Assembly (NCBI GenBank): GCA_018970085.1
Contig: JAGWXD010000005.1
Span: 1 to 64,000 of the forward strand
Reading direction: 5' to 3'
Source of the DNA: Cyanobacteria bacterium REEB459
GTDB lineage: Bacteria; Cyanobacteriota; Cyanobacteriia; Phormidesmidales; Phormidesmidaceae
Length of the DNA: 64,000 nucleotides
Shown here: positions 22,069 to 61,731 of the stretch, piece by piece
Layout of the letters: each line of letters starts with the position of its first letter
Numbering within the stretch: position 1 is the first letter of the stretch
Translations under genes and position numbers: made by a program
Notes under the pieces: model-generated
Seen by the model: only the letters and a program-made list of their open reading frames with translations
What the model was told of the DNA's origin: nothing
Database searches by the model: none

Positions 22069-23211
22069 TCAAGATCTGATTTGTACTGGCATGACCAAAT
22101 AGGTCATCTTAGTTCCACCCAACGGATGTAATATGACGGGACTGGTGGCGGTATTCAACTGCAATTGCACTTCGGTGGTGGAAAAAGACTTTAGTCCATC
22201 TAATAAATATTTCACATTAAACGCCACATCCAACGGTTCCCCTGAAATCTGAGCAGGGAGTGACTCCCGCCCTGAACCAACTTCTTGGGCATCAACCTGA
22301 AGTACAACCACTTGATTAACCGGATCTAACGTTAACTTTACAATATTATTTTTACGGTCTGCGATCACGGCAATTCGCTCTAAAGCAGCGGTAAATAGCC
22401 GTCGTTCAGCCGTCATTTGTCGTGAAAATTGACGGGGGAGTAACTGACGATAATTAGGGAAAGAACCTTCCAATAAACGACTGGTCAACCGTTGATCCCC
22501 CCATTCAAAAATGACCTGTCCCGGTTCAGACCATACATCTACCGTTGAAACCTCTTGTTGGGAGGCTAACATTCGTTCTAATTCCCGTAAGGTTTTAGCA
22601 GGAATGGTCACATCTAGGGAATGGCGGGGGTGATCGGTGGTGACGGATTCCCCATCTGTAAGCATAGGAACAACCACAGACAACCGATGTCCATCGGTAG
22701 CTGCAAATTCCAGTGCATCGGATTCAGTCACTAAATGAACTCCGGTTAATATTTGCTTGGTTTCATCCGTACTAGCAGCATACAAAGACCCTTGCAACCC
22801 AGACAAAAGACCTTCAATGGGCAACTGCATCACTTCTCCCTGTTGAATGACAGGCAATTCAGGAAATTCATCAGCCGACATACCCCGAACCTCATACTGT
22901 CCATAAATTGAAGTTAAACTAATGGTATCCTCTACCAATTCCAGGGTTAAATCCCCATCTGGCAGACGTACCACAATATCCGTCAACAATTTTGCAGGTA
23001 CTGTAATCCGTCCCTCCTGTAAAACTTGGGCTGAAAAACTGGTTTTAATGCCTAAACTTAAATCAAAACCAACCAAGGTTACCCTATGTGCCGATAGATC
23101 AGCATGAATAAAAATATTTGCTAACACTGGATGGGTTGGACGACTGGGTACGGCACGACTGACAAAGGAAAGGTGGGTACTCAAGTCCTTTTGGGTACAA
23201 ATAAATTTCAT
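22069..23211 (-). CDS. dnaN: DNA polymerase III sliding clamp (beta subunit)
   Basis: 380 residues from MKFICTQKDL. Three clamp folds in tandem: PTHPVLANIFI in the first, LPIEGLLSGLQGSLYAASTDETKQILTGVH in the second, and FNVKYLLDGLKSF near the third; the C-terminal YLVMPVQIRS closes it. It encircles DNA and tethers polymerase III. It reads away from an 850-base region dense in DnaA boxes, the standard oriC-dnaN arrangement of cyanobacteria. dnaA itself is not adjacent. Confidence 0.95.
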   Translation of the reverse strand: MKFICTQKDLSTHLSFVSRAVPSRPTHPVLANIFIHADLSAHRVTLVGFDLSLGIKTSFSAQVLQEGRITVPAKLLTDIVVRLPDGDLTLELVEDTISLTSIYGQYEVRGMSADEFPELPVIQQGEVMQLPIEGLLSGLQGSLYAASTDETKQILTGVHLVTESDALEFAATDGHRLSVVVPMLTDGESVTTDHPRHSLDVTIPAKTLRELERMLASQQEVSTVDVWSEPGQVIFEWGDQRLTSRLLEGSFPNYRQLLPRQFSRQMTAERRLFTAALERIAVIADRKNNIVKLTLDPVNQVVVLQVDAQEVGSGRESLPAQISGEPLDVAFNVKYLLDGLKSFSTTEVQLQLNTATSPVILHPLGGTKMTYLVMPVQIRS

Positions 23212-23244
23212 TGGTAACAACCTCCAGATGAACTACATAAATCG

Positions 23245-23945
23245 TGGGAGTTTTCCACAGAAATTAAAAATTGTGGAAAAGTCAATCAAATAATGCTTAA
23301 TTTAATAATTGTTTAAGCAATGCTTAAAATGAATTAAAACTAAAAAACTAAAATTCGTTTTTTTAGGTCCTTAGTCTCACATAATCTGGAGATCAGAATC
23401 CATATATAGTAATTAAGCCTAGTTCTAAACCCTACCTATAGTGTTTATAGGATTATTCTAGTTTATTTTCAATGTAGTTGTTTATATTAACATACCCCCT
23501 TAAATCCCATATTCCCCACCCCAAATCCATTTCTAAAAGACTCCTACATTCAATTAAAGTTTAAATAGTAGTAGTAGAGGGTGTGGAAATTGTGGAAAAA
23601 CCTCAAAAACCACTCTTTTTCAGACCTTAAAGGGTATTTTGCCTGTGGAAAACATGGGGAAAAGAGGGGCAAGTTTCCCACAGGTTTAAATGTACTAATA
23701 CTGTTTTCCCGATCCTTCTCCAACTTATCCCCTTTTTTTCCGCTCAATTGAGGGTTTTTTCCACAGGAATGACGGCAAAGGTCTTTCTGAAGGATGGGGT
23801 TTTCCACAGATTTTTCCTGTTTCCCACGGGTTGTAACCTTAAAAAGTTATAAAAAGTTACATTTCACAGCGTCCACACTAAGCAGTTGGTTTCCCATCCA
23901 ACAGAAGTATTTCCTCTGGTAATGTCCACAGTTCGGTAAACCGTA
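23245..23945. other. chromosomal replication origin (oriC)
   Basis: The 855 bases between dnaN and groES contain six exact copies of the cyanobacterial DnaA box TTTTCCACA: plus strand at 23251, 23757 and 23800; minus strand at 23272, 23591 and 23644 (leftmost base). Near-matches occur at 23582, 23674 and 23932. An AT-rich tract at 23280-23500 is suited to duplex unwinding. A cluster of this density next to dnaN matches the mapped origin of Synechococcus elongatus. No gene fits in this interval. Confidence 0.85.
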
Positions 23946-23985
23946 CTACAAAATCAGTTGCCATGGTACCCCAAATTTCGTTACA

Positions 23986-24012
23986 TTAGCACTCATGGGA
24001 TGAGAGTGCTAA
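23986..24012 (+). promoter_or_regulatory. CIRCE operator (HrcA binding site)
   Basis: Perfect TTAGCACTC-N9-GAGTGCTAA inverted repeat, 54 bases before groES. It is the target of the heat-shock repressor HrcA, so groESL here should be induced by heat through HrcA loss of function. Confidence 0.95.
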
Positions 24013-24066
24013 TTCTAGGGAATAGATTAGTTTCAGTCCTCGTATTTTATTGATAGGAGAGCGTAT

Positions 24067-24378
24067 ATGGCAGCTATAACGCTGAGTGTTTCTACTGTTA
24101 AACCTTTAGCTGATCGAGTTTTCGTAAAAGTGAGTGCATCCGAAGAAAAGACTGCGGGTGGCATTTTACTTCCCGACACTGCTAAGGAAAAACCTCAAAT
24201 TGGTGAAGTGATTCAGGTTGGTCCTGGCAAACGGAATGATGACGGAACCCGCCAAGCCCCTGAAGTGAAGGTTGGCGACAAGGTGCTTTACTCCAAGTAT
24301 GCCGGAACCGATGTGAAATTGTCTAATGATGAGTATGTACTGCTATCTGAGAAAGATATTTTGGCAGTAGTCTCTTAG
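24067..24378 (+). CDS. groES: co-chaperonin GroES
   Basis: 103 residues. [20 protein letters not shown] opens the fold. The mobile loop [18 protein letters not shown] binds GroEL, and [20 protein letters not shown] closes it. First gene of the groES-groEL operon behind CIRCE, with a GATAGGAGAG ribosome site. groEL follows after 68 bases. Confidence 0.95.
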
Positions 24379-24440: not shown

Positions 24441-26084
<1,644 letters not shown>

Positions 26085-29079: not shown

Positions 29080-29739
29080 TTACTGGTAATTAGAAATTTC
29101 TAGCCCAACATCAACTCCCACCCCAGATTTGATTTCATCCATAGGCAAGGGGTCTGGAACAGTGTCATCTTCAATTGCAAAACTGACATACCAACCGTCC
29201 GTCTTACTGACAATGGTTGCTTGTTTAATGGCAAACCCGTCAGGGATTGGACGGTGGAGGACAACTGGAATCTCATCAATTCTTGACAGCTTTAATATAC
29301 CATCTCCTAAATGCACTCCAGCCTTGGGGCTATTGACTCTAGGAAAGGTGAAAGAACAAATATCGCCCTGTTTCTTAAATCTAGGCTTACCTCCTCTCTT
29401 ACCAGTTTTATCAGGAATTAGCCACTGCTTCCAGGATTTATCCAACCCCATTACATGCTGTTGTTGGCAGTCACCATCAATCTCCTTGTACTCAGGAACT
29501 AATCCTTTTGTTTCTTTCAGGTCAGCCGCTTGAGATTAGTAATCTATTTTGCTTGGAATATCCCCAATTAGCTCACTTGTCACACTGCAACGGTCGAACT
29601 GAGACCTGGTACGACGTAACCAGTCTAATCTCTGCCCTGGAGCATAATTCCAGTGACGACGCACCAATGCTCCCCAGTGGCTCAATGTCGCCACCTGTAG
29701 GAGTGTTTGTTGCGATCGGTACTGATCAGTTAGTAGCAT
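29080..29739 (-). pseudogene. tnpB (IS200/IS605 type), 3'-truncated with a premature stop
   Basis: The N-terminal helix-turn-helix region is recognisable (RRHWNYAPGQRLDWLRRTRS). It is followed in the same frame by a TAA at 29536-29538 after IPSKIDY, then SQAADLKETKGLVPEYKEID and the central FPRVNSPKAGVHLGDGILKL. The frame ends at GVGVDVGLEISNYQ, just after the first RuvC Asp, so the rest of RuvC and the zinc finger are lost. Two independent inactivating changes. It marks the left boundary of the integron island. Confidence 0.85.
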
Positions 29740-29774
29740 GAAACTGTTATATCATACTTAATGCCATGAGCTAT

Positions 29775-29863
29775 AAATCTGAAGTGCATCACCCGCCGCA
29801 GATAACCTTTGCCTCATAACCGATTAACTCTTGGCGGTCGGTGTGCATGGGCGTTGTTATGCC
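29775..29863 (-). repeat. attC-like site B
   Basis: The arms GTGCATCACCCGCCGC and GGCGGTCGGTGTGCATGGGC pair imperfectly, with unpaired bases on one side, as attC bottom-strand hairpins do. The outer core on the minus strand is GCATAAC (29856-29862), one mismatch from RYYYAAC. About 85% identical by eye to site E at 36071-36158. It lies just downstream of the ORF at 29893-30162, as attC does in a cassette. The opposite core is degraded. Confidence 0.6.
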
Positions 29864-30797: not shown

Positions 30798-30880
30798 AGA
30801 TAAGGTGAAGTTGTGCGGTGGCCGACAAGCTTGAATTTTCACCGATAACCTCTGTGCCCTCCGCATCAACGCAGTGTTCG
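30798..30880 (-). repeat. attC-like site C
   Basis: TAAGGTGAAGTTGTGCGGTGG, then GATAACCTCTGTGCCCTCCGCA. It matches the reverse complement of site A closely and site D more loosely. The core near TAAGG has lost a base relative to TAACGG, so this site may be inactive. It separates repeat R1 from the restriction-modification genes. Confidence 0.5.
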
Positions 30881-30997
30881 GCGGCTGACGCTACCTTTAG
30901 ACAAAACGCTGAGACAAGAACATTTGTTCACAATACTTGCAAGCAGGCTGCTTTGGCAGTAGCATGGGTACCTGGTTTTGGTTTCGTGTCCGAAAGT

Positions 30998-32428
30998 ATG
31001 GCTACCCAATACATCTCTGTAAAAGAGACATCTGAAATCTTAAACTGCTCGGAGCAATATGTTCGTCAGCTACTCCGGTATGGCGAAATCAGCGGTGAGA
31101 GGATCAGCAGTCGGTGGATTGTAGCATCAGAGTCTGTTCAGAACTACCGTATCAAGGGAGAAGATACAAGCTTAAGCATTCCCGATCATGGGCGGCGTGC
31201 GTTCGACAAACCTGGTCTAAAAGCTTTGAGTTTTTTTTCTGGTTGTATGGGTTTGGACTTGGGACTAGAAAAGGAAGGTATCCAGGTGTTACTTGCGTGT
31301 GAAATCGATGCAGCCGCCCGGAAAACTATTGAAATCAATCGACCAGATATGGCGTTGATCGGGGATATTCGGGATTACTCAGCAGCAGAAATTCGAAAGA
31401 AAGCAGGACTGAGTTCGACTGATGAGATTGATGTAATGGTTGGTGGTCCGCCCTGCCAAGCTTTTAGCAGTGCAGGAAAGCGACAAGGCTTCAATGATGA
31501 GCGAGGCAATGTCTTTTTAACATTCATCGATTTAATCATTGAACTTAAACCTAGATTTGCAGTAATTGAAAACGTTCGAGGATTGTTGTCTGCTCCATTA
31601 AAACATAGACCTCATGAAATGAGAGGAAAGAATTTTCCACCATTATCTCAAGATGAACAAAGAGGAGGTGCATTACTTTTCATTACACAACGGTTAAAAG
31701 ATGCAGGATATAGTGTTTCTTTTAACCTGTACAATGCTGCTAATTTTGGGTCTCCGCAACAACGAGAAAGGGTTGTCATTGCTTGTAGTCGTGATGGAGA
31801 AAAACTTCCCCATCTCAGACCCACCCATTCAGAGAAAGGTTTATATGGACTGCCAACATGGAAAAGTTTACGAGAGGCTTTAGAAGGTCTTCCTGAAGAT
31901 GGACATCATTTTGTCAAGTTTCCTGAAAAACGACTCAAGTATTACAGTCTGCTCAAGGCTGGACAATACTGGCGAGATTTACCAGAAGAGTTCCATCAAG
32001 AGGCATTAGGAGCTTCTTATCATGCGGGAGGCGGAAAAACTGGTTTTTACCGCAGGTTAGCTTGGGATAAGCCTTCCCCGACGTTAGTCACTCATCCGGC
32101 TATGCCTGCAACTGACTTAGCACATCCAGAAGAAGATAGACCTCTCAGTATTGAAGAATATAAGCGGATTCAAGAATTCCCAGACGATTGGATTATCTCA
32201 GGTACTTTACTCGATCAATATCGGCAAGTTGGTAATGCCGTACCTTGCTCTCTAGGAAGAGCGATCGCTAGGATGTTGCTATCTCACTTGAGGGGTGAGC
32301 CGCCCGTTACTTACCCAGATTTTCCGTATTCTCGCTACCATAAAACGGATGATGTCAGTTGGATGAGTGATATGGGTTGTTTTGAGAAATCTTCAGCAAA
32401 ACAACTATCTCTTAACTTAGTTGGATGA
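30998..32428 (+). CDS. DNA (cytosine-5) methyltransferase with N-terminal HTH
   Basis: 476 residues from ATG 30998. An upstream extension of the frame to 30818 runs through the attC site and is not likely coding. Residues 1-50 are a MerR/excisionase-like helix-turn-helix (YISVKETSEILNCSEQYVRQ). The C5-MTase motifs follow: I (LSFFSGCMGLDLGLEKEG), IV (GGPPCQAFSSAGKRQGF, catalytic Cys), VI (IENVRGLL), VIII (SPQQRERVV), X (QVGNAVPCSLGRAIA). The HTH may autoregulate the gene, as in several type II systems. Tail-to-tail with the restriction gene, overlapping 12 bases. Confidence 0.92.
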   Translation: MATQYISVKETSEILNCSEQYVRQLLRYGEISGERISSRWIVASESVQNYRIKGEDTSLSIPDHGRRAFDKPGLKALSFFSGCMGLDLGLEKEGIQVLLACEIDAAARKTIEINRPDMALIGDIRDYSAAEIRKKAGLSSTDEIDVMVGGPPCQAFSSAGKRQGFNDERGNVFLTFIDLIIELKPRFAVIENVRGLLSAPLKHRPHEMRGKNFPPLSQDEQRGGALLFITQRLKDAGYSVSFNLYNAANFGSPQQRERVVIACSRDGEKLPHLRPTHSEKGLYGLPTWKSLREALEGLPEDGHHFVKFPEKRLKYYSLLKAGQYWRDLPEEFHQEALGASYHAGGGKTGFYRRLAWDKPSPTLVTHPAMPATDLAHPEEDRPLSIEEYKRIQEFPDDWIISGTLLDQYRQVGNAVPCSLGRAIARMLLSHLRGEPPVTYPDFPYSRYHKTDDVSWMSDMGCFEKSSAKQLSLNLVG

Positions 32429-33169
32429 ATCCGATAAATCCTTCCAAGGATTATCCACTTCAATGGCTAAGGCATCTGGATTGACAATTAGAACTTGTTG
32501 AACAAAGGCAACGAAGTTTTCTTCCGAAAAGCGATCTGTATCATACTTATCATTGAAATAAAACCATCGATAGGAACCTGTTCTAGCATCAACTCGATAC
32601 CACTTTTCAATGGGCTGATTAATTCTTACTCTGGATGATGAACTGTTTTCCGAGTTGCTGCGGTTTTTGACCTGTAAGAGAGAACCATCAACATTGCAAA
32701 AATCTACATGCCGAACAGATTCTCCCCAACAACAATACCAACTATAATCAGCAAGTTGCTCAGCTAGAAACTCCTCTAGTAGTAATCCTTGAATATTTTC
32801 GGCGGACATCGATAGCCTATGGGCATATTTGATTTGCTCAAGATGCTCTATTGTTAGCCCAGTCAGTCGAGCGTTGATGATTATACTGACGATTGGATCG
32901 GCAACTGTGCTTGGGAGTTGTGAGATTCGCCTTGAAATTCGATTTTCATAGCTGTCGTTATACTTCTTTAACCAAGCCTTGGCTAGCATTTCAGGGGTTC
33001 TGGCTTTTAGAGTTGGAGAAAGTCCTGGATTTCTGTAGCAGGCTGAGAGAATAGTTTGGTGTGCTTCAAGCAATAGCTGATCTTGTTCAAAGAACGCATC
33101 TTCAAAAATCTTTAAAAATTTTTCTTCAGAACTTGAAGTGCTAATAATGTTATTGAAGTTAACAGACAT
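32417..33169 (-). CDS. SinI-family type II restriction endonuclease
   Basis: 250 residues. The region LLLEEFLAEQLADYSWYCCW, ESVRHVDFCNVDGSLLQVKNRSNSENSSSSRVR carries the D..Q/E-x-K-type nuclease core (VDFCN.. LQVKNR) and the signature found in SinI/AvaII-like enzymes that cut GGWCC. The methyltransferase partner overlaps at the 3' end. Cleaves unmethylated DNA. The family name is from memory of the motif, and the exact recognition site is an inference. Confidence 0.7.
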   Translation of the reverse strand: MSVNFNNIISTSSSEEKFLKIFEDAFFEQDQLLLEAHQTILSACYRNPGLSPTLKARTPEMLAKAWLKKYNDSYENRISRRISQLPSTVADPIVSIIINARLTGLTIEHLEQIKYAHRLSMSAENIQGLLLEEFLAEQLADYSWYCCWGESVRHVDFCNVDGSLLQVKNRSNSENSSSSRVRINQPIEKWYRVDARTGSYRWFYFNDKYDTDRFSEENFVAFVQQVLIVNPDALAIEVDNPWKDLSDSSN

Positions 33170-33429
33170 CTGATGTTTTCCCTCTGAACGTACAAATCAT
33201 GGGACAGAGATGTCCACAATTGTACGCCACAGTAATTTTCCTAGATTTGCTCCTCAAAGCTTAAACAGTTGTCCTCAAACAGGCAAGGTATCAGCTACTG
33301 CCTCAGCCCAGACTTGAAGCGGTCAAACTATTAATGAATGGAATCTTTCCGCCTATTTTTAGATTCCTTACGGAGACGAGCAAGAGTACTATTAAATGCA
33401 CGGACAGATGTTTATTCTTTATCCAGCCA

Positions 33430-33708
33430 CCGCCTAAAAAGTTGCTGGTCCCGGTGCGGGATGCCATTCGTCTCAAATACTACGCCTACCGTACAGAAGA
33501 AACCTACGCCCAATCGATCGGGCGATACATCCTGTTGCATGACAAGTGCCACCCCAGAGAGATGGGCATTGCTGAGGTGGAAGCGTTTTTGACCTATTTG
33601 GCTGTCGAAGGACAGGACGTCAAAACCACCCTGATCTATACCTATCTGCTCAATCCAGGCGATCGGGGGGTGCGGAACCCCTTTGATTTGGGGCGAGTCA
33701 GACCATAA
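33430..33708 (+). pseudogene. internally deleted integron integrase remnant 1
   Basis: RDAIRLKYYAYRTEETYAQS and [17 protein letters not shown] match residues about 6-62 of the intact IntI at 39595. They continue without a break into DVKTTLIYTYLLNPGDRGV, which matches residues 296-321, including the active-site Tyr. The 233 residues between are gone. The frame is open and ends a few residues after the family C-terminus. The same junction is found in the second remnant at 35625. Confidence 0.85.
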
Positions 33709-33860
33709 AAATCACCATAAGGGCAGCAGACCTCCACTAGGAGGGGCTTCCCCGATCGACCGTCTGGCATTATCACCCCTCACACAGAACTGGATGCCTT
33801 TAATGTGGTTACACGCCTCCTCGATAGAGATATGAATTCCCGGTATGGGTAGGATGATTG
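33690..33860. repeat. island repeat R, copy 2
   Basis: Continues from the end of the integrase remnant: GGGGCGAGTCAGACCATAAA, GACCGTCTGGCATTATC, GTGGTTACACGCCTCCTCGAT, then directly AGAGATATGAATTCCCGGTA. It is followed by a possible attC core remnant (TTGTTATGCTG) rather than a whole site, then vapC. Bases 33170-33429 hold no gene. Confidence 0.7.
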
Positions 33861-33877
33861 TTATGCTGCGAACTTAC

Positions 33878-34267
33878 TCACCAATTCACCGTTTGTAAAT
33901 TTTCTACTTCTTGAAAATGGGTATCCCGTGTTACCAAAATCAGATTGTGCTGTAGGGCGAGGGCTGTAATCCAGACATCATTTTCCGGTAATGGACGACC
34001 TTTGAGCCTCAATCTATTCTTAACTCCGCCATATTGCCGAGCCGTTTCAGCGTCACACACCAATATTGTGCTGCCAGCAACCAATTCATCAACTCTTGCT
34101 AGGTTTGCTTCTATCCGTCCTGATCTCCTGGCTCCGTAATACAATTCACCAATGACAATGCTTGGAATGAAAACTTCGCTAGTTTGAGCAAGATTGTCTT
34201 TGATGATTGCCTCATCTGCGAAAAGGGCAATAACAATGTTGGTATCAAGCAAAACCCTACCAATCAT
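33878..34267 (-). CDS. VapC-type PIN toxin (copy 1)
   Basis: 129 residues with the PIN acidic quartet: VLLDTNIVIALF, VIGELYYGA, LPENDVWITALALQ and LVTRDTHF. A site-specific endoribonuclease toxin, typically cleaving tRNA or rRNA. Its start overlaps the upstream antitoxin gene by 11 bases. Both lie on the minus strand like the other cassette genes. Confidence 0.9.
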   Translation of the reverse strand: MIGRVLLDTNIVIALFADEAIIKDNLAQTSEVFIPSIVIGELYYGARRSGRIEANLARVDELVAGSTILVCDAETARQYGGVKNRLRLKGRPLPENDVWITALALQHNLILVTRDTHFQEVENLQTVNW

Positions 34268-34484
34268 TGATATCTACCCGTTCACAATCTTGCTCGATCG
34301 CTTCACTCATTAACTGAAGGTCATCAGAAGGAATTGAACCAGCAAAACGCAATAATTGCTGCCCTGGTGTACCTCGGACTTCCGATTTTACCAAGGCTCG
34401 AACAAATTCAAGCACCTGCCATTGCAAATGCTGAGGCATGACCTTCAATTGTTCAACAACTTCTTCGATGATAGGAATATTCAT
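34257..34484 (-). CDS. VapB-like antitoxin
   Basis: 75 residues. IIEEVVEQLKVMPQHLQWQV and LEFVRALVKSEV form the helical region seen in DUF2281-type antitoxins. The acidic C-terminus (LMSEAIEQDCERVDIND) would wrap the toxin active site. Overlap with vapC ensures coupled translation. The DNA-binding part is not obvious from sequence. Confidence 0.75.
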   Translation of the reverse strand: MNIPIIEEVVEQLKVMPQHLQWQVLEFVRALVKSEVRGTPGQQLLRFAGSIPSDDLQLMSEAIEQDCERVDINDW

Positions 34485-34659
34485 ATTACTCTCCCTGCTA
34501 CCATCCTACATCGTCTGCCCAGAGAGCAGTAGAAGAGTAGTCTTTAATACTGTCATGCAGGGCAGGGGTTGCCTTTACCGAAAACTCTAGCCGCATAACT
34601 TGTTATTCAACCGCTGGAATCAGTCTAATATATCTATTATCTATAAAGTGTATTAGGTT

Positions 34660-34753
34660 GTGGTTACACGCCTCCTCGATAGAGATATGAATTCCCGGTA
34701 TGGCTAAGACTCGATCCCAGTTCTCCCATTCTCCTTCGGAGATCACGCACCAG
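34660..34753. repeat. island repeat R, copy 3 (3' part only)
   Basis: Starts at GGTTGTGGTTACACGCCTCC and carries CTCGATAGAGATATGAATTC, TTCCCGGTATGGCTA and GATCCCAGTTCTCCCATTC, leading straight into attC-like site D. The 5' part and the integrase end are absent. Bases 34485-34659 are AT-rich and non-coding; a TAACTTGTTATTCAACCG stretch could be a ruined attC. Confidence 0.65.
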
Positions 34754-34836
34754 GGGTAACGGTGAAGTGCAGCGGCGGCAAATAGTCTTGAAAACTACAC
34801 CAGTAGCTCTCGTCCGGCTCAGAGGCTATGTTAGCT
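34754..34836 (-). repeat. attC-like site D
   Basis: GGTAACGGTGAAGTGCAGCG with GGCGGC on one arm, CGTCCGGCTCAGAGGC on the other. The outer cores on the minus strand are AGCTAAC and GTTACCC, each near the RYYYAAC/GTTRRRY consensus. It lies 8 bases after the stop of the second PIN toxin, exactly where the attC of that cassette should be. The right arm is nearly identical to site F. Confidence 0.6.
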
Positions 34837-34843
34837 GGCTCCG

Positions 34844-35239
34844 CTACTCCAGGCACTGAAATCCCCGTTCACCTTTCAATTTGCCATCGAAACTCCAGGT
34901 TTCTGTGCAGCCCGCTTGCCGAGAGGTCGCCCCAATCAGGTAATCAGAAAAATCAGCCTTGCCCCGCTTATACCGCTGTAGAGCCTGGTCAACAGTTGAT
35001 CGGTTTTCAAATTCAAAGGCTGCACTATGCAACATCGCCTCTAGCACATTGATGATCTCGTCTTTGCGAAAGCCATAGTTTGCTCCCTTCAGCACCCAAA
35101 CCAGCTCGCACAGAACGATATGGGTGATAAAGCAAGGCTGATTCTGCTGAATAACAGCAACAGCCTGTTGCCATTGCTGCTCATCATCACGGGTGAGGTA
35201 TCGAACGAGGATGTTGGTATCAAGTCCAATCATTCGCAC
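34844..35239 (-). CDS. VapC-type PIN toxin (copy 2)
   Basis: 131 residues: GLDTNILVRYLTRDD, VLCELVWVLKG, DFSDYLIGATSRQAGC and TWSFDGKLKG carry the PIN acidic residues. A predicted ribonuclease toxin of a different subgroup from copy 1. Its start overlaps the AbrB-type antitoxin by 20 bases. attC site D follows it directly. Confidence 0.9.
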   Translation of the reverse strand: MRMIGLDTNILVRYLTRDDEQQWQQAVAVIQQNQPCFITHIVLCELVWVLKGANYGFRKDEIINVLEAMLHSAAFEFENRSTVDQALQRYKRGKADFSDYLIGATSRQAGCTETWSFDGKLKGERGFQCLE

Positions 35240-35465
35240 CCTCGGAGATGGCTGTTTCCATATCCTCCAGGGAAGTTCGTTGCATACCGGGTCGATGGAG
35301 GATGCCGGATAGATCTTCTACGGCGACATTAAGTGGAAAGATTTTGACTTGACCGTCTTCGTCGATCACAAACTCGACTCGGCTGCCGCTCACCAGCTTG
35401 AGATGCTGTCGAATTTCTTCAGGTACGGTAATTTGTCCGGTATCGGTCACGGTGGTACTGAGCAT
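35220..35465 (-). CDS. AbrB/MazE-type antitoxin
   Basis: 81 residues beginning MLSTTVTDTGQITVPEEIRQ, the SpoVT-AbrB swapped-hairpin DNA-binding motif, with VEFVIDEDGQVKIFPLN as its second half. The C-terminal LEDMETAISEGAND would bind the toxin. A longer frame to 35942 exists but is antisense to an integrase remnant and not credible. Paired with the downstream PIN toxin; likely represses its own operon. Confidence 0.88.
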   Translation of the reverse strand: MLSTTVTDTGQITVPEEIRQHLKLVSGSRVEFVIDEDGQVKIFPLNVAVEDLSGILHRPGMQRTSLEDMETAISEGANDWT

Positions 35466-35624
35466 CGCTGAAATGGCTGCAAGTGAGCTTAATACCCAAA
35501 TTTTAACTTGAAGCGATATGATGCCGCATAACTCCCCAAAACAGGTCATGCCGAAAAATTTTAACACAACCCTCTCAACCAGGGATGTTATACCGATCGG
35601 GAGCAGGATAATACTCCTTTGCCC

Positions 35625-35879
35625 TCTATGGAATCCCGTCCGACAAAACTCCTTGACCCAGTGCGGGATGCCATTCGTCTCAAACACTACGCCCAATCGA
35701 TCGGGCAATACATCCTGTTGCATGACAAGCGCCACCCCAAAGACATGGGCATTGCTGAGGTGGAAGCGTTTCTGACCTATTTGGCTGTGGAAGGACAGGA
35801 TGTCAAAACCACCCTGATCTATACCTATCTGCTCAATCGATGCGATCGGGGGGTGCGGAACCCCTTTGATTTGGGGTGA
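35625..35879 (+). pseudogene. internally deleted integron integrase remnant 2
   Basis: [37 protein letters not shown] then DVKTTLIYTYLLNRCDRGV and NPFDLG with a stop at the family C-terminus. Same internal deletion as remnant 1 (join at VEGQ/DVKTT). In addition it has lost about 8 residues (the AYRTEETY part). Together the two show one deletion event followed by duplication and further decay. Confidence 0.85.
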
Positions 35880-36070
35880 GTCAGACCATAAAAAGGCCCC
35901 ATAAGGGCACCCTAAAAACTTCCCCGATCGACCGTCTGGCATTATCCCCCCTCACACAGAACTGGATGCGATCGATGTGGTTACACGCTTTCTCGATAGA
36001 GATATGGCTTCCCGGTATGGGTAGGACTCGATCCCAGTTCTCCAATTCTCCTTCGGAAATCACTCGCCAC
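35865..36070. repeat. island repeat R, copy 4
   Basis: Continues from remnant 2: GGGGTGAGTCAGACCATAAA, GACCGTCTGGCATTATCC, GTGGTTACACGCTTTCTCGAT, AGAGATATGGCTTCCCGGTA, GATCCCAGTTCTCCAATTC. It lacks the same internal segment as copies 2 and 3. attC-like site E follows at once. Confidence 0.75.
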
Positions 36071-36158
36071 GGATAACGTTTCCCATCACCCGCCGCAGAC
36101 AACCTCTGCATCATAACCGAGTAACTATTGGCGGTCGGTGTGCATGGGCGTTTATGGG
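36071..36158 (-). repeat. attC-like site E
   Basis: GGATAACGTTTCCCATCACC, CGCCGCAGACAACC, then TTGGCGGTCGGTGTGCATGG and GCGTTTATGG. It shares both arms and most of the loop with site B. The arm CATCACCCGCC pairs with GGCGGTCGGTGTG leaving bulged bases. Cores are degenerate. Confidence 0.55.
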
Positions 36159-36189
36159 GGGACGGGAGTGAAGATGATGCCCAGAGACG

Positions 36190-37807
36190 ACTATGCAGCG
36201 AGCGTCAGTGGGTGACTACTAACATATCGTATCGCTCCTCCAATTGGTCTAGCAGACTTACAACGAATACTCAGGGAATTGGGTCGTGACCCACTCCATA
36301 ATCTTTTCGCCCAGGCTGCTAGCGGCAGACTCTCCGCCATATCAAAAAATACCTCCAACTTAACACAATGAAACTGCACCAAATCACCACTCCATTTGCC
36401 GTCTACATTGGTATAGACTGGGCAGATCGCAAACATGACATCTGTCTGTACGACCCAGCAGCCAAGACTTGGACGCATACGACGATCGCCGCCACCCCGC
36501 AAGCGATCGCCGATTGGGCCAACCAACTGCGAAAGCAATACGGGGAAAGACAATTCCTGGTTGGATTAGAGCAAAAACGGGGACTATTGCTCTATGCACT
36601 GTGTCAATACGAGCATCTGGTCTTGGTTCCAATCAACCCCAGAACGGTCGCCAACTATCGCAAAGCCTTTCAACCGTCTCGTGCCAAGTCCGACCTGATC
36701 GATGCCAAACTAATTGTCGAGCTGATGCAACGGCATGGCGACAAGCTCGACATCTGGCAGGCAGGCTGCGCGAAGCATCGGGAGTTGCGCCAATGGGTGG
36801 AGTCGCGCCGCATGTTAGTGGGTGAAAAAGTGCGCCTGACGAATCGGATCACAGCAGCGCTCAAATCCTACTACCCCCAAGTGTTGGATTGGTTTGCAGA
36901 TAAACATACCATTGCCTTTTGTGAATTCCTTGAACAATTTCCCAACCTAGAATCGGCACAGGCAGGGACTCCTGAGTTATTGAAGCAGTTCTTTCGCAAT
37001 CATCACATCATCCGTAACGCAACCATTCAACGTCGAACGCAACAAATTCAGGAAGCGGGACCACCGTTGACTCAAGATACCGCGATTATCCAACCTGCTC
37101 AAGCCTTGGTGCAAGGATTGGTCGCGTTGCTCAAAGTCGTCTTGCAGCAACTGATTGAGTTTGAAACCCAAATTGAAAAACTATTTTCCTCGCTGCCGGA
37201 TGCTGAACTGTTTCAAGCCTTACCAGGAGCAGGTCCGCATTTAGCACCCCGACTTCTCGCCGCTTTTGGTGAAGATCGAAGCCGATTCAACTCCGCCCAA
37301 TCGTTCATGAGTTATATCGGAATTGCGCCAGTCAAGGAGGAGAGTGGCAAAAAGCATTGGGTACATTGGCGTTGGTCTTGTCCGATTTTCTTACGACAAA
37401 CTTTTGTGGAATGGGTAGATCACGCGAGACCGCATTCGGCTTGGTCGCAGGCTTTTTACCAGCAGCAACGCACGGCAGGTAAATCCCATCAAAAGGCGAT
37501 TCGAGCTTTAGCCTATAAATGGGGACGGATTCTGTGGCGGTGTTGGCAAGACAAAACTGCTTATGATGAGGAGAAATATGTAGCGGCATTGAAGCGCCAA
37601 AAATCACCTCTTGTAGCATCCCTGACAGATTAGTTGCCAAATCAGCAACAAAAAAGAAACTACGTTAAGCAAATTAGTAGAAACAATCAATCAGCCTGAC
37701 ATTTTGACTGATACTTGAAATCAGATGTTCAACGTCAGGCCGATTTGTCTTGGGTAAAAATCCCTGAAAACTACTCAGGAAAGATAGTCTAGAATTCTCT
37801 GTTGACA
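36190..37807 (+). mobile_element. IS110-family insertion sequence (ends approximate)
   Basis: One transposase gene flanked by about 178 bases upstream and 170 bases downstream of non-coding DNA. The upstream flank has a tight hairpin TGGGTCGTGACCCA and could be the source of a bridge RNA, as in the IS110 group. No inverted terminal repeats are seen, as usual for the family. The right flank runs into half of an attC-like site, so the element probably split that site. Exact ends cannot be set without an empty-site comparison. Confidence 0.7.
36368..37633 (+). CDS. IS110-family transposase/recombinase
   Basis: 421 residues. The N-terminal DEDD RuvC-like domain has VYIGIDWADRKHDICLYD, the Glu in VGLEQKRGLLLYAL, and KSDLIDAKLIVELM. 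The C-terminal Tnp20 domain has LFQALPGAGPHLAPRLLAAF and AQSFMSYIGIAPVKEESGK with the conserved serine. Length and motifs are complete, so it should be functional. The family uses a structured bridge RNA to choose its target. Confidence 0.92.
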   Translation: MKLHQITTPFAVYIGIDWADRKHDICLYDPAAKTWTHTTIAATPQAIADWANQLRKQYGERQFLVGLEQKRGLLLYALCQYEHLVLVPINPRTVANYRKAFQPSRAKSDLIDAKLIVELMQRHGDKLDIWQAGCAKHRELRQWVESRRMLVGEKVRLTNRITAALKSYYPQVLDWFADKHTIAFCEFLEQFPNLESAQAGTPELLKQFFRNHHIIRNATIQRRTQQIQEAGPPLTQDTAIIQPAQALVQGLVALLKVVLQQLIEFETQIEKLFSSLPDAELFQALPGAGPHLAPRLLAAFGEDRSRFNSAQSFMSYIGIAPVKEESGKKHWVHWRWSCPIFLRQTFVEWVDHARPHSAWSQAFYQQQRTAGKSHQKAIRALAYKWGRILWRCWQDKTAYDEEKYVAALKRQKSPLVASLTD

Positions 37808-37834
37808 CCGTCCGGCTCGGGGCCTATGTTAGAC
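37808..37834 (-). repeat. half attC-like site F
   Basis: CCGTCCGGCTCGGGGCCTAT then GTTAGAC, a perfect minus-strand R'' core (GTCTAAC). The arm matches site D. The other half is missing here, presumably on the far side of the IS110 element. It lies 22 bases past the stop of the 37857-38234 gene, as the attC of that cassette would. Confidence 0.6.
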
Positions 37835-37856
37835 CGCGGCGATTATCTTTCAGAAT

Positions 37857-38234
37857 CTAGCGAGCAATTTTCTGTTTTCCAGGGCACCATATATTCATAT
37901 CTACTAGGTCAGAATCAGAACGAATTTTGGTTTGTGCCTCAGATAGTAGTTGAACCGCCTGCCGCCTACTGCTAGATACAAAAACTCCCCTATACCAGTT
38001 ATTACACTTGAAAATTGAAGGGCTATACTGAACAAGCTTTTTAACTCTGCTTGATTCATTCTGTGCAGAAGATAGCGTTGTAGCAGCATGAAAAACAACG
38101 CCCCAAGACTGTACTTTTTGAGAAATTTGAGTAGGGCATTGGAAGTCTTGACAAAACTCATTATTATCTTTTATTGAAACACCATTTATTGATAGAGAAG
38201 AAATTAGAACAGCTATTCCTATAAATTTACTCAT
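37857..38234 (-). CDS. small exported cassette protein, unknown
   Basis: 125 residues with a signal peptide at 1-20 (MSKFIGIAVLISSLSINGVS). Mature part: DNNEFCQDFQCPTQISQKVQ, SWGVVFHAATTLSSAQNESS, FKCNNWYRGVFVSSSRRQAV. Four cysteines suggest two disulphides. I recognise no family. It lies 51 bases after the membrane-protein gene with no attC between them, so the two form a two-gene cassette. Confidence 0.6.
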   Translation of the reverse strand: MSKFIGIAVLISSLSINGVSIKDNNEFCQDFQCPTQISQKVQSWGVVFHAATTLSSAQNESSRVKKLVQYSPSIFKCNNWYRGVFVSSSRRQAVQLLSEAQTKIRSDSDLVDMNIWCPGKQKIAR

Positions 38235-38285
38235 GGGCGATACATCAATTGTGGAATCAGGGTAAAAATTATATTCAATGGTTTC

Positions 38286-39239
38286 TCAAGGTGGGGAGGT
38301 TGCAGCGTGCATTTCTCTTTTATCTTTCTTTTCTACAGATTCTTTATTCCAAGCCTCTAGATCATCAGGATGAATAAGAACTATTACTCTTTGCCCTTCT
38401 CTAATACACATAGGAAATCTCTCCTTTACGGAAACACGAGCAACTTTAAATTCCTTAAAATCACTCAGTGGACTATCTTTGGAAGGAGCAATATACAACA
38501 AAGGGATTTTAGAAAATTCATCTTTTATTTGTAGATCAGAAACACAAACATTTAACTCTCCTTTTTTAGCATTGCTGTTAACTTTTACTAAAACTGGAAA
38601 ACCTGCTAGAGAATTGGGGCAAATTTGTCCTTCACAAATAGCTTTTCTTAAATCAATAAGAGTTGGGTTAAAATAGTCATTCTGTGATGTCTCAATAATA
38701 AATTTTGTCAAAGGAGATGGTTGATTAGGATCAGGGTCATCAATATTACCAAGAATGAAATTTTGTTTGTTACTTCCAGACGGTTGCACAAAGAGTCGCC
38801 CATCGATATAGCGAATTGAAAGGTTGAGGTTTCTTAAGTCACCTTTATAAAAGTCAATCTTTTCTGGCAGCCCTGACCCTCTTCTGAATTTTACTTGGAC
38901 AGATTCCCCTTTTTGATTGAGAACAACCAAGGCTTGGGAATCAGGTTCAAGCACTAATGAATTATTCTGTTTCCATTTTTCTAAATAAAAGTTAACTCCA
39001 TAACTTGAGGCGAGTAGGATAACCGATGCGCCTCCAATTTGGATCGCGGCTTTCTGACCTACACTCCAATTTATTCGATTATCTTTATCTATTCCTCCTA
39101 AAAAGTGGTACACCAGCAATGCCGTGCCACTACCAAGTAGCAGAGAGGACACTGGAGTTGGAACAAACGGCACTACAGCAGATGCAACTCCGAACAAATA
39201 AAATATTCCTACTGCTAGTGCTTTCTTAAGATCTTCCAT
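38286..39239 (-). CDS. membrane-anchored cassette protein, unknown
   Basis: 317 residues. Two or three hydrophobic segments within residues 8-80 (GIFYLFGVASAVVPFVPTPV; AAIQIGGASVILLASSYGV). A soluble domain of about 230 residues follows, rich in beta-strand patterns (LSIRYIDGRLFVQPSGSNKQ) and with a two-cysteine CEGQICPNS element. The C-terminus is charged (KKDKREMHAATSPP). Family not recognised. As the first gene after attI it would be the newest cassette and the best expressed if a promoter lies in the intI/attI region. Confidence 0.6.
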   Translation of the reverse strand: MEDLKKALAVGIFYLFGVASAVVPFVPTPVSSLLLGSGTALLVYHFLGGIDKDNRINWSVGQKAAIQIGGASVILLASSYGVNFYLEKWKQNNSLVLEPDSQALVVLNQKGESVQVKFRRGSGLPEKIDFYKGDLRNLNLSIRYIDGRLFVQPSGSNKQNFILGNIDDPDPNQPSPLTKFIIETSQNDYFNPTLIDLRKAICEGQICPNSLAGFPVLVKVNSNAKKGELNVCVSDLQIKDEFSKIPLLYIAPSKDSPLSDFKEFKVARVSVKERFPMCIREGQRVIVLIHPDDLEAWNKESVEKKDKREMHAATSPP

Positions 39240-39367
39240 ACGCCAAACTCACACACTATTACGAGGGGCAAAACATTTTCTTGGATTTAGTGAACTTAAG
39301 TTCTACTAACTTTAGCAACAGCAGAAACTTCTTTCAGCCTCAACATATCTTAACTAAAGGATTAGCG

Positions 39368-39520
39368 GTCTAACAACTTATTATACTGACACTTTCCGCG
39401 TAACTGCCCTCTACAAGGTATTTATACCGACTGTATCGATATAAATACCCCTAGGCGGGGAGTTATACCGACAGTTTCCGCATAATACGCCTGAGCTGGG
39501 CAATTATGCGGAAATCTTCC
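39368..39520 (-). other. candidate attI site
   Basis: The core GTCTAAC at 39368-39374 reads GTTAGAC toward the cassettes, as attI should. Between it and intI are short repeats: TATACTGACACTTTCCGCG, TATACCGACTGTATCG, TATACCGACAGTTTCCGCAT, and the inverted pair TTTCCGCATAAT / ATTATGCGGAAA. attI sites carry such extra integrase-binding repeats. Position (between intI and the first cassette) is right. The rest of 39240-39594 is AT-rich without a gene. Confidence 0.5.
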
Positions 39521-43284: not shown

Positions 43285-44796
43285 ATGATTATTGATGACC
43301 AGCACTACGATGTAATTATTGTCGGCACCGGGGCAGGAGGGGGCACCCTGGCCCAGAAACTGGCCCCCTCTGGCAAGCGCATCCTGGTGCTGGAACGGGG
43401 AGAGGCCATGCCCCTGGGGGATCAAAATATTAATACCGTCGATATTTTCCAAAAGCAGCGCTACCATGCCCCCGAAAACTGGTACGACGAAGCGGGTGAA
43501 CCCTTTACTCCCCAGACGAAATATACCCTGGGCGGTAATACCAAAATCTATGGGGCGGTGCTCCAGCGGCTGCGGGAAAGGGATTTTGAGGCGGTTACCC
43601 TGCAGACTGGGGTTTCTCCCGAGTGGTGTGTTAAGTACGCCGATTTTGAACCCTACTACACCCAGGCTGAAGCCCTCTACCAGGTTCACGGTCAGGCTGG
43701 TAGCGATCCTACCGATCCCCCCCGCAGTGCCCCTTACCCTTACCCGGCAGCCGATCATCCGGGGATTATGGCACCTATTCTGGCGGATCTAGTGCGCCAG
43801 GGCTGCCATCCCTATGCCTTGCCCCTGTCCCAGTCCCTCCGCCCCGAGGATCCCACCGGCGACGCGGAAATATTTGGGGTGGAACCAGCCCTGAAATGTG
43901 CCAACCTTACCCTCAAGACCTCGGCTTTGGTGACTCTGGTGTTAACCAATCCTGCTGGAACAGCAGCCCGGGGAGTACAGGCGACGATCCACGGTCAGGT
44001 CTATATCTTTACGGCTGATTTAATTGTCTTGGCTGGTGGTGCTGTTAACTCTCCTGTTCTACTGCTGAAATCCGCCAACGAAAGGCATCCCCAGGGCCTG
44101 GCGAATGGCTCAGGGCAGGTAGGACGCAATCTGATGAAACTACAGATGACCTCTATCGTGCAGGTCACAACCGAAGCTAATCCACCGGCTTTTTCCCGAT
44201 CGCTAGGCATCAATGACTACTACTGGGGCGATCGCCAGTTCGCCTATCCCATGGGTCACATTGAGAACATGGGAGGAGTGTTACAGGATGCAATTTTTGC
44301 CGAGTCACCCCCGGTGCTCTCCCTGGTGACTCGACTCATGCCGAACGCGGGTCTACAACAACTGGCCACCCATTCCATTGCCTGGTGGGTGATGAGTGAG
44401 GTGCTGCCTGACCCCGCCAACCGGGTGGAGATCAAGAAGGACAAAATCCAGCTCTACTTCACCCCCAATAACACCGAAGCCCACGATCGCCTGGTCTACC
44501 GCTGGTTAGATAGCCTTAAGGAGATGGAGAAGCACGGTTCCCGCTTTACCCGGTCCCAGATCCATCCCCGTGGGCAGACGCCCCTGCCGGTGGTGGCTAA
44601 CCAGTGTGGAACTTGCCGAATGGGCACCGATCCTCGTACGTCTGTCCTCGATCCCCACTGCCGTACCCACGAACTGGATAACCTTTACGTGGTGGATAGT
44701 AGTTTCTTTCCCTCCAGTTCCAGTCTGGGACCTGCCCTTACCGTCATTGCCAATGCCCTGCGAGTGGGGGATCATCTGCTTCAAAGACTGGGCTAG
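43285..44796 (+). CDS. GMC-family FAD oxidoreductase
   Basis: 503 residues. The FAD dinucleotide fold YDVIIVGTGAGGGTLAQKLA is at residues 8-27, GGNTKIYGAVLQRLRERDF in the FAD-attachment region, LIVLAGGAVNSPVLLLKS in the second FAD contact, and NQCGTCRMGTDP with DSSFFPSSSSLGPALTVIA at the C-terminus with the active-site pair region. Members oxidise alcohols, choline or sugars. Substrate cannot be predicted. No partner gene is nearby; 100 bases downstream of ctaE. Confidence 0.9.
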   Translation: MIIDDQHYDVIIVGTGAGGGTLAQKLAPSGKRILVLERGEAMPLGDQNINTVDIFQKQRYHAPENWYDEAGEPFTPQTKYTLGGNTKIYGAVLQRLRERDFEAVTLQTGVSPEWCVKYADFEPYYTQAEALYQVHGQAGSDPTDPPRSAPYPYPAADHPGIMAPILADLVRQGCHPYALPLSQSLRPEDPTGDAEIFGVEPALKCANLTLKTSALVTLVLTNPAGTAARGVQATIHGQVYIFTADLIVLAGGAVNSPVLLLKSANERHPQGLANGSGQVGRNLMKLQMTSIVQVTTEANPPAFSRSLGINDYYWGDRQFAYPMGHIENMGGVLQDAIFAESPPVLSLVTRLMPNAGLQQLATHSIAWWVMSEVLPDPANRVEIKKDKIQLYFTPNNTEAHDRLVYRWLDSLKEMEKHGSRFTRSQIHPRGQTPLPVVANQCGTCRMGTDPRTSVLDPHCRTHELDNLYVVDSSFFPSSSSLGPALTVIANALRVGDHLLQRLG

Positions 44797-44806
44797 ACCG
44801 CCCTAG

Positions 44807-45577
44807 TTAGTCTGGGGAGTTTAACCGCCGCCAGCCCTGTCTCAGCAGTTGTAAACCAAATAACACCATAAACTGGGGGTTGTTAATCAGGTAGCGCCTC
44901 CACAACCGCCCGGGCTCCTGGCTGAGGCGATAGACCCACTCCAGCCCCAACGCCATCATCCAGCGAGGGGCCTGGGAAACTTCGCCACTAAAAAAGTCAA
45001 AGGCTGCCCCTACTCCGATCATGACGGCCTCTATCTGGTTTACCTGCCGATACATCCACTGCTCCTGCTTGGGGCACCCTAAACCCACGAGTACTACCCG
45101 AGCCCCCGATTGCCGAATTCGTTGGACATCTATGGCTTCTTCCTCAGGGCTGAGGGTTCTGAAGGGTGGTGCCTGACTACCGCTAATCACCAGGGCCGGG
45201 AAACGCTGCTGTAGATAGGCCTTGAGCCGAACCAGGCGGTCTGCTGTGCCGCCGTAAAGATAAATCGGTAGGCCTAAATCCGCAGCTCGCTGGCACCAGG
45301 CCAGCATCAGGTCGGGGCCATAAACCCGAGGTTGATCCCTGACCCCTAACCAGCGTAATCCCCAGACCAGAGGCATGCCATCAGGGGTGACCAGGGCGGC
45401 GTGGTTGAGTATGTTTCGATAGACCAGGTCTCGATAGGCGGTCATCACCACATGGACGTTAGCGGCTACTACATAACAGGACCTACCCGCCATAGCCCAA
45501 GCTTGAATACGATCGCAGGTATCAGCGTAACTGGTGCAATCAACCCAAGTCTTAAGAATGCATCGATTTTGAGCCAA
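44807..45577 (-). CDS. WecG/TagA/CpsF-family glycosyltransferase
   Basis: 256 residues from TTG 45577; no ATG is available in the frame before a stop. YVVAANVHVVMTAYRD, LVTPDGMPLVWGLRWLG, PRVYGPDLMLAWC, YLYGGTADRL and VLVGLGCPKQEQWMYR are the family motifs. Such enzymes add N-acetylmannosamine(uronic acid) to lipid-linked intermediates in surface polysaccharide synthesis. It pairs with the sugar-phosphate transferase 18 bases upstream on the same strand. Confidence 0.9.
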   Translation of the reverse strand: MAQNRCILKTWVDCTSYADTCDRIQAWAMAGRSCYVVAANVHVVMTAYRDLVYRNILNHAALVTPDGMPLVWGLRWLGVRDQPRVYGPDLMLAWCQRAADLGLPIYLYGGTADRLVRLKAYLQQRFPALVISGSQAPPFRTLSPEEEAIDVQRIRQSGARVVLVGLGCPKQEQWMYRQVNQIEAVMIGVGAAFDFFSGEVSQAPRWMMALGLEWVYRLSQEPGRLWRRYLINNPQFMVLFGLQLLRQGWRRLNSPD

Positions 45578-45595
45578 GGCAAATAGGCCGTAATG

Positions 45596-46273
45596 CTAGT
45601 AAGCGCCCTTATTGTCAAAGATTACTAAAAACGTCCTGGCAATGATTTTAATATCGTGCCAGGGAGACCACAAGCGCTGATAACTCAGATCTAGCTTAAC
45701 AATTTCTTCAAAATCCTTCACCGCCGATCTGCCACTCACCTGCCATTGGCCCGTCAACCCTGGCTTAACATCCAGCCGACGCCAATGATACTCACTGTAG
45801 CGTGCCACCTCGTCACCCGTTGGCGGACGAGTTCCCACCAGACTCATTTCTCCCTTTAGCACGTTAAAAAACTGGGGAAATTCATCCAGGCTGGTTTTGC
45901 GCAGTAGCTTACCAATGCGAGTCACCCGGGGATCACTTTCGTTTTTAAAAATGATGCCCTGAGCCTGATTAGGTACGGAAGCCTTGAGGGCATCGGCATT
46001 GACAACCATAGACCGAAACTTACGGATTCTAAAGGGCTTACCCTTAAGACCGTAGCGGACCTGAGAATAGAAAATTGGCCCGGGGCTATCTAGCTTAATC
46101 AAGGCGGCCACAGGGACTAAAATAATGGCTAAAATAGAAAGCCCCACCAGGGACCCCGCAATATCGGTAATACGCTTAAAGGAAGAATGAACGGAGGGAT
46201 GGTTATCGGCCATAGAAGGTATAACCTGCTCACTCGAGTTAAAACATTGATTATTGCGAGAGGAAAGCATCAT
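45596..46273 (-). CDS. undecaprenyl-phosphate sugar transferase (WcaJ/exopolysaccharide type)
   Basis: About 225 residues from ATG 46273 (an ATG at 46318 is in frame). One membrane segment (DIAGSLVGLSILAIILVPVA), then the catalytic KLDSPGPIFYSQVRYGLKGK, FRIRKFRSMVVNAD, LLRKTSLDEFPQFFNVLKGE, SLVGTRPPTGDEV and KPGLTGQWQVSGRS. It starts polysaccharide repeat-unit synthesis by moving a sugar phosphate to the lipid carrier. Co-transcribed with the WecG-family gene. Confidence 0.92.
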   Translation of the reverse strand: MMLSSRNNQCFNSSEQVIPSMADNHPSVHSSFKRITDIAGSLVGLSILAIILVPVAALIKLDSPGPIFYSQVRYGLKGKPFRIRKFRSMVVNADALKASVPNQAQGIIFKNESDPRVTRIGKLLRKTSLDEFPQFFNVLKGEMSLVGTRPPTGDEVARYSEYHWRRLDVKPGLTGQWQVSGRSAVKDFEEIVKLDLSYQRLWSPWHDIKIIARTFLVIFDNKGAY

Positions 46274-46709
46274 AGCAGCTCTAAGAAGGGAGAAATGACG
46301 GGGATGCCTAGAGATCAAATCCGGAACAATTCTGCAGTGAACTAACGTAACGACAAACTAACAGCCGGGGGCAGAATGGATGAGGGCGAGCTAAACTCGG
46401 GTAGATCTTCTAATTCACTTCTATCAGACCAGCTCTAGGAGCCAATCTGGGGACTTCATAAAAGCTAATAAATAATAATTAAATAAGGCCATGAACGTAA
46501 GTAATCTAACCCTGCTTCAAAAGTCTAGAGGCCTGCTGCCCCTGCTGTCTCCTTCAGACGGGGAAATACTCTAAAACTTTGGCTAAGTTCCAACTAGTAT
46601 GAATTTTCTGTAAAGCCAGGGGTTTGCCCGTTCCTGGTGGGTGAGTCTGATCTTTTTTTTAGGGTTAGACGCCTTGCCCCCAGATGATTTGACCAAGGGT
46701 TGGACTGCC
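46274..46709. other. 435-base non-coding interval
   Basis: Between the sugar transferase start and the M20 hydrolase stop. An AT-rich patch at about 46460-46490 may contain the promoter of the polysaccharide genes. No ORF, RNA gene or repeat is seen. Confidence 0.4.
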
Positions 46710-47891: not shown

Positions 47892-47997
47892 AGCAGCAAT
47901 TGGTAGGGATCGGCAAAGCGGCCAGGGGTATAGCTTGGGCCAGGGTGTTTAAGGGGTTGGTCAGCCTGGGGTCAGTTAACGCTGGGTAGGTATCTGG

Positions 47998-49614: not shown

Positions 49615-49842
49615 CGTTCTACCTGCCTGGCGGCTGCCCTACTCGTACCCGATGGGATCATCAGTTCATGCCGATAACCATGGATACTCCCCTGGCTATT
49701 CACCTATTAAGAGCCTACGCTCTCTGGGCAGATTGGCCTATGGGTAGAACCGAACTTACTCAGGTCGAAATAGCTGTCCTGCCCAGATTATGACCTGGGT
49801 TGCAGCTTTTAAATCATCTCCCCCTGGTTTTGTCAAATGCCC

Positions 49843-50202
49843 TTAACCAAACCAGCTAGAGGCAGTTTCGCTGGGGTCTAGGGCCTCAACTACCGTAGCC
49901 ATCTCCCCAAGGACAGGGTCTAGCAGTAGAGCTTGTAGTCCCTGATCAATTAGCTGGTCTATGTGGGCCTGCTGTTCTGCTGAATAACACTTGGTGGCAC
50001 AACTATTTACAGAGCTAGCTGCTGCCGGTTCCATGGTGACGTACACCACCGGCAAGCGCCGAATTACGTAGGCCACCAGTTTTTCCTGGAGCTCAGTGGC
50101 GAGGGCAGTACCCTCTTCGGAGGGTAGGGCCAGAGCGTTTAAAGCTCGATTAATTTTAGCTGTGACCACTGGTAGGGTTAAATTGACAATAATTTGAGTC
50201 AT
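49843..50202 (-). CDS. ComFB-like small protein
   Basis: 119 residues from ATG 50202, which has GAGG 8 bases upstream. The segment ALATELQEKLVAYVIRRLPVVYVTMEP resembles the xVxAYxLNxLPxxY core of late-competence ComFB proteins. Two cysteines in NSCATKC are also in keeping. Cyanobacterial ComFB relatives bind c-di-GMP. The match is partial, so treat the family as tentative. It is divergent from the 50727 gene. Confidence 0.5.
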   Translation of the reverse strand: MTQIIVNLTLPVVTAKINRALNALALPSEEGTALATELQEKLVAYVIRRLPVVYVTMEPAAASSVNSCATKCYSAEQQAHIDQLIDQGLQALLLDPVLGEMATVVEALDPSETASSWFG

Positions 50203-61727: not shown

Positions 61728-61731
61728 CCCT

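Follow-up and report, generated by a model that had tools for sequence, protein, structure and literature searches.

A probable dnaN-linked replication origin beside groESL in a probably chimeric cyanobacterial contig

The whole stretch of DNA analysed here, referred to as the window, comprises 64,000 nucleotides, and the locus under study is the gap of 855 bp between dnaN and groES (window 23212-24066). The genes on both sides of the gap are the following.

22069 to 23211, minus strand: dnaN, DNA polymerase III sliding clamp, with ATG at 23211 (TIGR00663, 343.8 bits, cut-off 137.65)
24067 to 24378, plus strand: groES (NF001530, 165.9 bits; PF00166)
24447 to 26084, plus strand: groEL (TIGR02348, 835.3 bits)

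In the list of open reading frames dnaN is prolonged to a TTG at 23220 (22069-23220). The gene order PhoH-PP2C-dnaN-oriC-groES-groEL-mtnA was found to be identical, within one contig, in an independent assembly, that of the closest relative G053 (the MAG LaPlata-b_bin-0123, 97-98% DNA identity), whose locus L009 is in place identical to G053:C21. A complete DnaA gene is present in this relative (TIGR00362, 537.6 bits), and its product carries the DHTT motif of domain IV. An Rfam scan gave no RNA in the origin; its sole matches in the window were two to group II intron D1-D4 on the minus strand, near the window start (1-126 and 1578-1672). A tRNA search found none.

Across all 64 kb of the window there are six exact copies of the DnaA box TTTTCCACA, every one of them in the dnaN-groES gap, between 23251 and 23808. 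The exact boxes, together with three near-matches to which we return below, are listed here.

23251 to 23259, plus strand: DnaA box 1, exact, by motif search
23272 to 23280, minus strand: DnaA box 2, exact, by motif search
23591 to 23599, minus strand: DnaA box 3, exact, by motif search; first box of the unwinding element (BUS) described below
23644 to 23652, minus strand: DnaA box 4, exact, by motif search
23757 to 23765, plus strand: DnaA box 5, exact, by motif search
23800 to 23808, plus strand: DnaA box 6, exact, by motif search
23655 to 23663, minus strand: near-match TTTTCCCCA, 1 mismatch, same in the relative
23674 to 23682, plus strand: near-match TTTCCCACA, 1 mismatch, same in the relative
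23922 to 23930, plus strand: near-match ATGTCCACA, 2 mismatches, the DnaA-like site closest to CIRCE, 2 bases altered in the relative

The chance expectation for TTTTCCACA is 0.90 per whole window, and none of 100 shuffles reached six, the maximum being four. The looser pattern TTWTNCACA returned the same six sites and none extra; with 5.4 expected and 40 of 100 shuffles reaching six, it is not enriched by count, so the signal comes from the exact motif and from the way its copies cluster. Over the assembly (102 contigs, 3.24 Mb), 30 copies of TTTTCCACA were counted versus 22 for the reversed-pattern control, with no further cluster of more than two. An earlier note on this DNA had reported six exact boxes in both orientations, and several near-matches, between dnaN and CIRCE-groES. 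The six exact boxes were confirmed; the near-matches, counted over both strands, comprise three that deviate from the motif at one base and six that deviate at two. The near-match at 23922 is probably not a site, since it is altered at two bases in the relative. Boxes 1 and 2 form a convergent pair, TTTTCCACA-N12-TGTGGAAAA, with a 12-bp gap, immediately upstream of dnaN.

The earlier note overlooked a module at 23566-23599, the DnaA-trio unwinding element or BUS. Read towards dnaN (23599 to 23566), it runs TTTTCCACA-ATTTCCACA-CCCT-CTACTACTACTA and is followed by an AT-rich stretch. Apart from box 3, its parts and that stretch are as follows.

23582 to 23590, minus strand: second BUS DnaA box ATTTCCACA, 1 mismatch, same in the relative
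23578 to 23581, minus strand: CCCT, GC-rich spacer from box to trios, read from the sequence
23566 to 23577, minus strand: four DnaA-trios, CTACTACTACTA (3'-GAT-5' four times on the plus strand), by pattern match
23281 to 23565, no strand assigned: AT-rich stretch, putative duplex-unwinding region, GC 0.20-0.35 per 100-bp window versus 0.38-0.46 on both flanks

The box-plus-trios pattern has this single match in the window. The four GAT trios are separated from the second box by 4 bp and from the first by 13 bp, in agreement with the BUS rule of a DnaA box at most 16 bp from at least three trios, with 3'-GAT-5' preferred (PMC8287927). The same paper reports that DnaA of Synechococcus elongatus unwinds its own BUS element in vitro.

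The generality of this layout was examined over cyanobacterial dnaN loci gathered from 27 named contigs, further genomes and genome stretches (n = 178); of 34 named-contig loci, seven from Firmicutes (L035, L037-L042) had been excluded before counting. Three of the 178 were dropped as identical or too short upstream, which gave 175 distinct loci with at least 250 bp upstream; at least 1200 bp were available in 170 of these regions and at least 2900 bp in 120. A dnaN match was found in 142 genomes, from which six with dnaN at the record start and some with partial or divergent matches were left out. A BUS pattern aimed at dnaN was observed in 98 of the 175 distinct upstream regions; over the same loci the controls gave 0 on the opposite strand, 0 in the mirrored sequence and an expectation of 0.00 from dinucleotide shuffles. 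At 108 of 175 loci the exact boxes within 1200 bp numbered three or more. Leftward boxes, rightward boxes and dnaN follow one another in that order in 14 of 15 layouts compared, a hand-picked, non-random set, the fifteenth being contig C63 of the assembly, which has no exact boxes. In the window the boxes run < < > >, and of the rightward units the BUS comes last, ahead of the AT-rich stretch; relatives are arranged likewise. Of the 175 loci only one, that of the close relative, has a convergent pair no more than 250 bp from dnaN.

A DnaA-trio element in fixed orientation upstream of dnaN is found, as these counts indicate, in more than half of a broad cyanobacterial sample, and the presence or decay of the BUS might be tested as a predictor of which cyanobacteria still need DnaA and oriC. 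The 77 of 175 regions in which no BUS was found make a possible comparison set against the known DnaA-independent cyanobacteria. Upstream of the second dnaN of the assembly (L078, G000:C63) exact DnaA boxes are absent and the BUS, TTTTCCTCA-AATTCCTCA-GGCT-CTACTAATA, is degenerate, which might reflect a relaxed dependence on DnaA.

Comparison of the region with that of the closest relative (L009) revealed 53 differences over 846 positions. None of the 79 core bases, which make up the BUS and the six exact boxes, differs, and elsewhere 53 of 767 positions (6.9%) do (one-sided Fisher p 0.005), in a test that uses one relative genome, the only one of its order in the collection searched. These data bear on the possibility that the clustered boxes are a fossil, or that they bind DnaA for regulation (titration, or the control of dnaN and groESL), with replication starting elsewhere or independently of DnaA. 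DnaA and oriC are dispensable in some cyanobacteria, so that even a well-formed oriC may be out of use, and Synechocystis 6803 and Synechococcus 7002 replicate DnaA-independently with dnaA present (PMC7198777). A fossil or purely regulatory cluster is nonetheless very unlikely in our estimation, given a core that has stayed unchanged at 79 of 79 bases next to the divergence of the remaining positions, and a BUS that is intact here and degenerate at the C63 dnaN.

The origin reading, which we retain, was also compared with the GC skew. Within 1-39000 the cumulative GC-skew minimum falls at 23994. The skew to the left and right is -0.087 and +0.081 at 5 kb and -0.037 and +0.003 at 15 kb; the sign change fades past 5-10 kb, in a contig that looks chimeric. 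According to the earlier note, a skew minimum mapping elsewhere would speak against an origin at this place. The minimum of the whole window does lie elsewhere, at 62779, but that point is in the DNA of another organism (see below), and the objection does not extend to 1-39000. Skew is described as unreliable for cyanobacteria in PMC5987646; the local skew weakly backs the oriC reading. Taken together, the clustered exact boxes, the BUS, the AT-rich stretch, the local skew minimum at 23994 and the core bases unchanged in the relative uphold the proposal of an oriC between dnaN and groESL. The locus is very probably the replication origin of a freshwater cyanobacterium and follows the usual plan of the phylum.

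From this arrangement a course of initiation may be sketched. DnaA would load on the divergent array of exact and near-exact boxes, with boxes 5 and 6 on one side and boxes 4 and 3 on the other, and from the tandem pair at 23582-23599 it would spread onto the trios at 23566-23577. Strand opening would proceed from the trios into the AT-rich stretch at 23281-23565, where the helicases would be loaded, and two forks would depart, one through dnaN and one through groESL. The pair formed by boxes 1 and 2 could perhaps close off the AT-rich stretch at its far end or, alternatively, repress dnaN.

The window as a whole appears to be composite. Composition and sequence comparison suggest that it probably consists of two cyanobacteria misjoined by an assembly error, with the following segments.

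1 to 34300, no strand assigned: segment probably derived from a cyanobacterium like LaPlata-b_bin-0123, whose right edge may fall anywhere from 31.6 to 39.4 kb; compared with G053 from 6101 onwards
31627 to 39370, no strand assigned: zone of the probable false join, with restriction-modification genes, a PIN plus MazE-like toxin-antitoxin, an IS110 transposase and AT-rich ORFs

The GC content is 44.6% over 1-38500 versus 55.8% over 40501-64000, and 15 sampled stretches of the assembly all fall at 0.53-0.58. GC3 of the listed genes is 0.34-0.44 (about 0.38) before 34.3 kb and 0.51-0.70 after 35.2 kb, an AT-rich ORF at 38286-39239 being the exception to the rise. Most of 6101-29078 is shared with G053 (97-98% DNA identity), as a small number of blocks spread over two contigs; between 8248 and 9303 these are interrupted, and only short repeats match there. 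G053 is placed in an order and family of the class other than those of the assembly. Over 44001-64000 the best matches come from the assembly's own genus, mostly at ~68-79%. The second dnaN, on C63, shares 70-73% identity with 16 loci of that genus, versus 57% with the dnaN of the window. Three further groEL genes were found in the assembly, as was an hrcA gene on contig C23, which probably belongs to the other organism. As a guess, the exact join may be put at ~34.3-34.8 kb. Two further features were noted: a C5 cytosine methylase beside a SinI-type restriction endonuclease (30818-33169), which make up a type II restriction-modification pair, and a repeat at 29201-29776 with many copies in G053 at 80-91% identity, beside which contig C21 of G053 ends.

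Were the contig genuine, the organism of the assembly would have recently taken up a foreign block of ~35-39 kb with dnaN, oriC and groESL and would carry two origin-like regions. The contig is indeed continuous in the assembly, the join zone has an IS110 transposase and toxin-antitoxin genes with a phage integrase at 39.6 kb, and the other dnaN region (C63) is without an exact box and has a degenerate BUS, all of which would suit such an uptake. What it demands is the transfer of a housekeeping block between orders at 97-98% identity, into a recipient in which native homologues of dnaN, groESL and aspartate kinase would persist, and the block shows no drift to the GC or GC3 of the host. Misjoining in metagenome assembly is far commoner than a transfer of this kind, and we regard a genuine contig as very unlikely. 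Since a chimera is probable, the origin is probably not that of the genome under which the assembly is filed, and gene neighbourhoods across 31.6-39.4 kb are not to be trusted. For the first organism, even so, both the origin and the groESL beside it are real, because the independent assembly shows this order within a single contig. We hold with high confidence, on the basis of sequence, that the gap would serve as oriC in a member of the Synechococcales, either conspecific with LaPlata-b_bin-0123 or of a sister species, and that DnaA would open it at the BUS, with groESL as a neighbour and in a window that is probably misjoined.

The remaining question concerns the neighbour. Upstream of groES two promoter elements were located.

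23931 to 23946, plus strand: GTTCGGTAAACCGTAC, K-box of the groESL promoter, by its consensus letters
23986 to 24012, plus strand: CIRCE, the HrcA operator, TTAGCACTC-N9-GAGTGCTAA, both 9-bp arms perfect, from the sequence and the relative

The K-box lies ~55 bp before CIRCE, a spacing equal to that in many groESL operons elsewhere, including ones not at oriC. In a set of 33 groE loci, which includes the window and its relative (L095, L100) and was counted raw, the K-box was present in 30 and CIRCE, with at most three mismatches, in 26. K-box and CIRCE are stated to govern cyanobacterial groESL in PMC5381637. The conservation of dnaN-oriC-groES in relatives, a check proposed in the earlier note, was looked at and did not hold: of the 175 distinct regions upstream of dnaN, a single one contains GroES, that of the near-identical relative L009. 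In a class-wide search groES was found in 142 of 145 genomes and dnaN likewise in 142 of 145; the two lie within a few kb of each other in G053 only, as judged by eye among the matches listed. Within the sample, the order dnaN-oriC-groES is confined to a single lineage. The literature was judged by title, and no paper title was found on groES or groESL beside oriC or dnaN with CIRCE or heat shock. At a further locus, L226 (G101:C2), there is a groEL (65% identical) at a distance of 1.4 kb upstream of dnaN, accompanied by a CIRCE-like site. It was rejected as a second case of dnaN-oriC-groES, having no exact DnaA box, no BUS and a different intervening sequence.

The distance from CIRCE to the last exact DnaA box was measured as 177 bp, which agrees with the earlier figure of about 200 bases. 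The accompanying idea that DnaA and HrcA sites almost touch is not borne out, and contact between the two proteins was rejected, given this distance, the alteration of the near-box at 23922 in the relative and an ordinary promoter with the usual K-box/CIRCE spacing. A looser functional coupling of oriC and groESL may be imagined, in which DnaA and HrcA, or heat-shock transcription, interact across the 177 bp. The closeness is kept in both available genomes and groES transcription is directed away from oriC, both of which would favour coupling, but the one near-box that separates the conserved array from CIRCE is itself altered in the relative, the K-box/CIRCE spacing is the same in cyanobacteria without this arrangement, and the arrangement is missing from the other 174 upstream regions. 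We find such coupling highly improbable. Bolder still is the view that the oriC of a little-sampled order gained groESL as outer neighbour and a convergent pair closing an AT-rich stretch of ~285 bp, so that initiation would be bracketed by two DnaA assemblies, and initiation and heat-shock transcription would be sensitive to each other; to this we assign a low likelihood. The groESL operon looks self-contained and its position lineage-specific, since the K-box/CIRCE spacing is usual elsewhere and the position recurs in 1 of 175 regions. It would be a neighbour of the origin and not a part of it, with its own K-box/CIRCE promoter. The origin itself is an ordinary cyanobacterial dnaN-linked oriC; the groESL neighbour is unusual and lineage-specific.

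Three known systems may be set beside this locus. The oriC of the circular chromosome of Cyanothece ATCC 51142 (PMC4674748) likewise has TTTTCCACA boxes in the gap at the dnaN start, an AT-rich stretch and dnaA elsewhere; it has three boxes versus six exact ones here, and its neighbour on the other side is the ORF cce_1862, whereas here it is groESL. The BUS of Bacillus subtilis shares two tandem boxes, a short GC-rich spacer, at least three 3'-GAT-5' trios and a box-trio distance of at most 16 bp (PMC8287927); its architecture is no different from that of the putative BUS described here. With the cyanobacterial groESL1 operons under CIRCE and K-box control (PMC5381637), the operon has in common a K-box ~55 bp ahead of CIRCE and CIRCE before groES, and it differs from them in that here it adjoins oriC.
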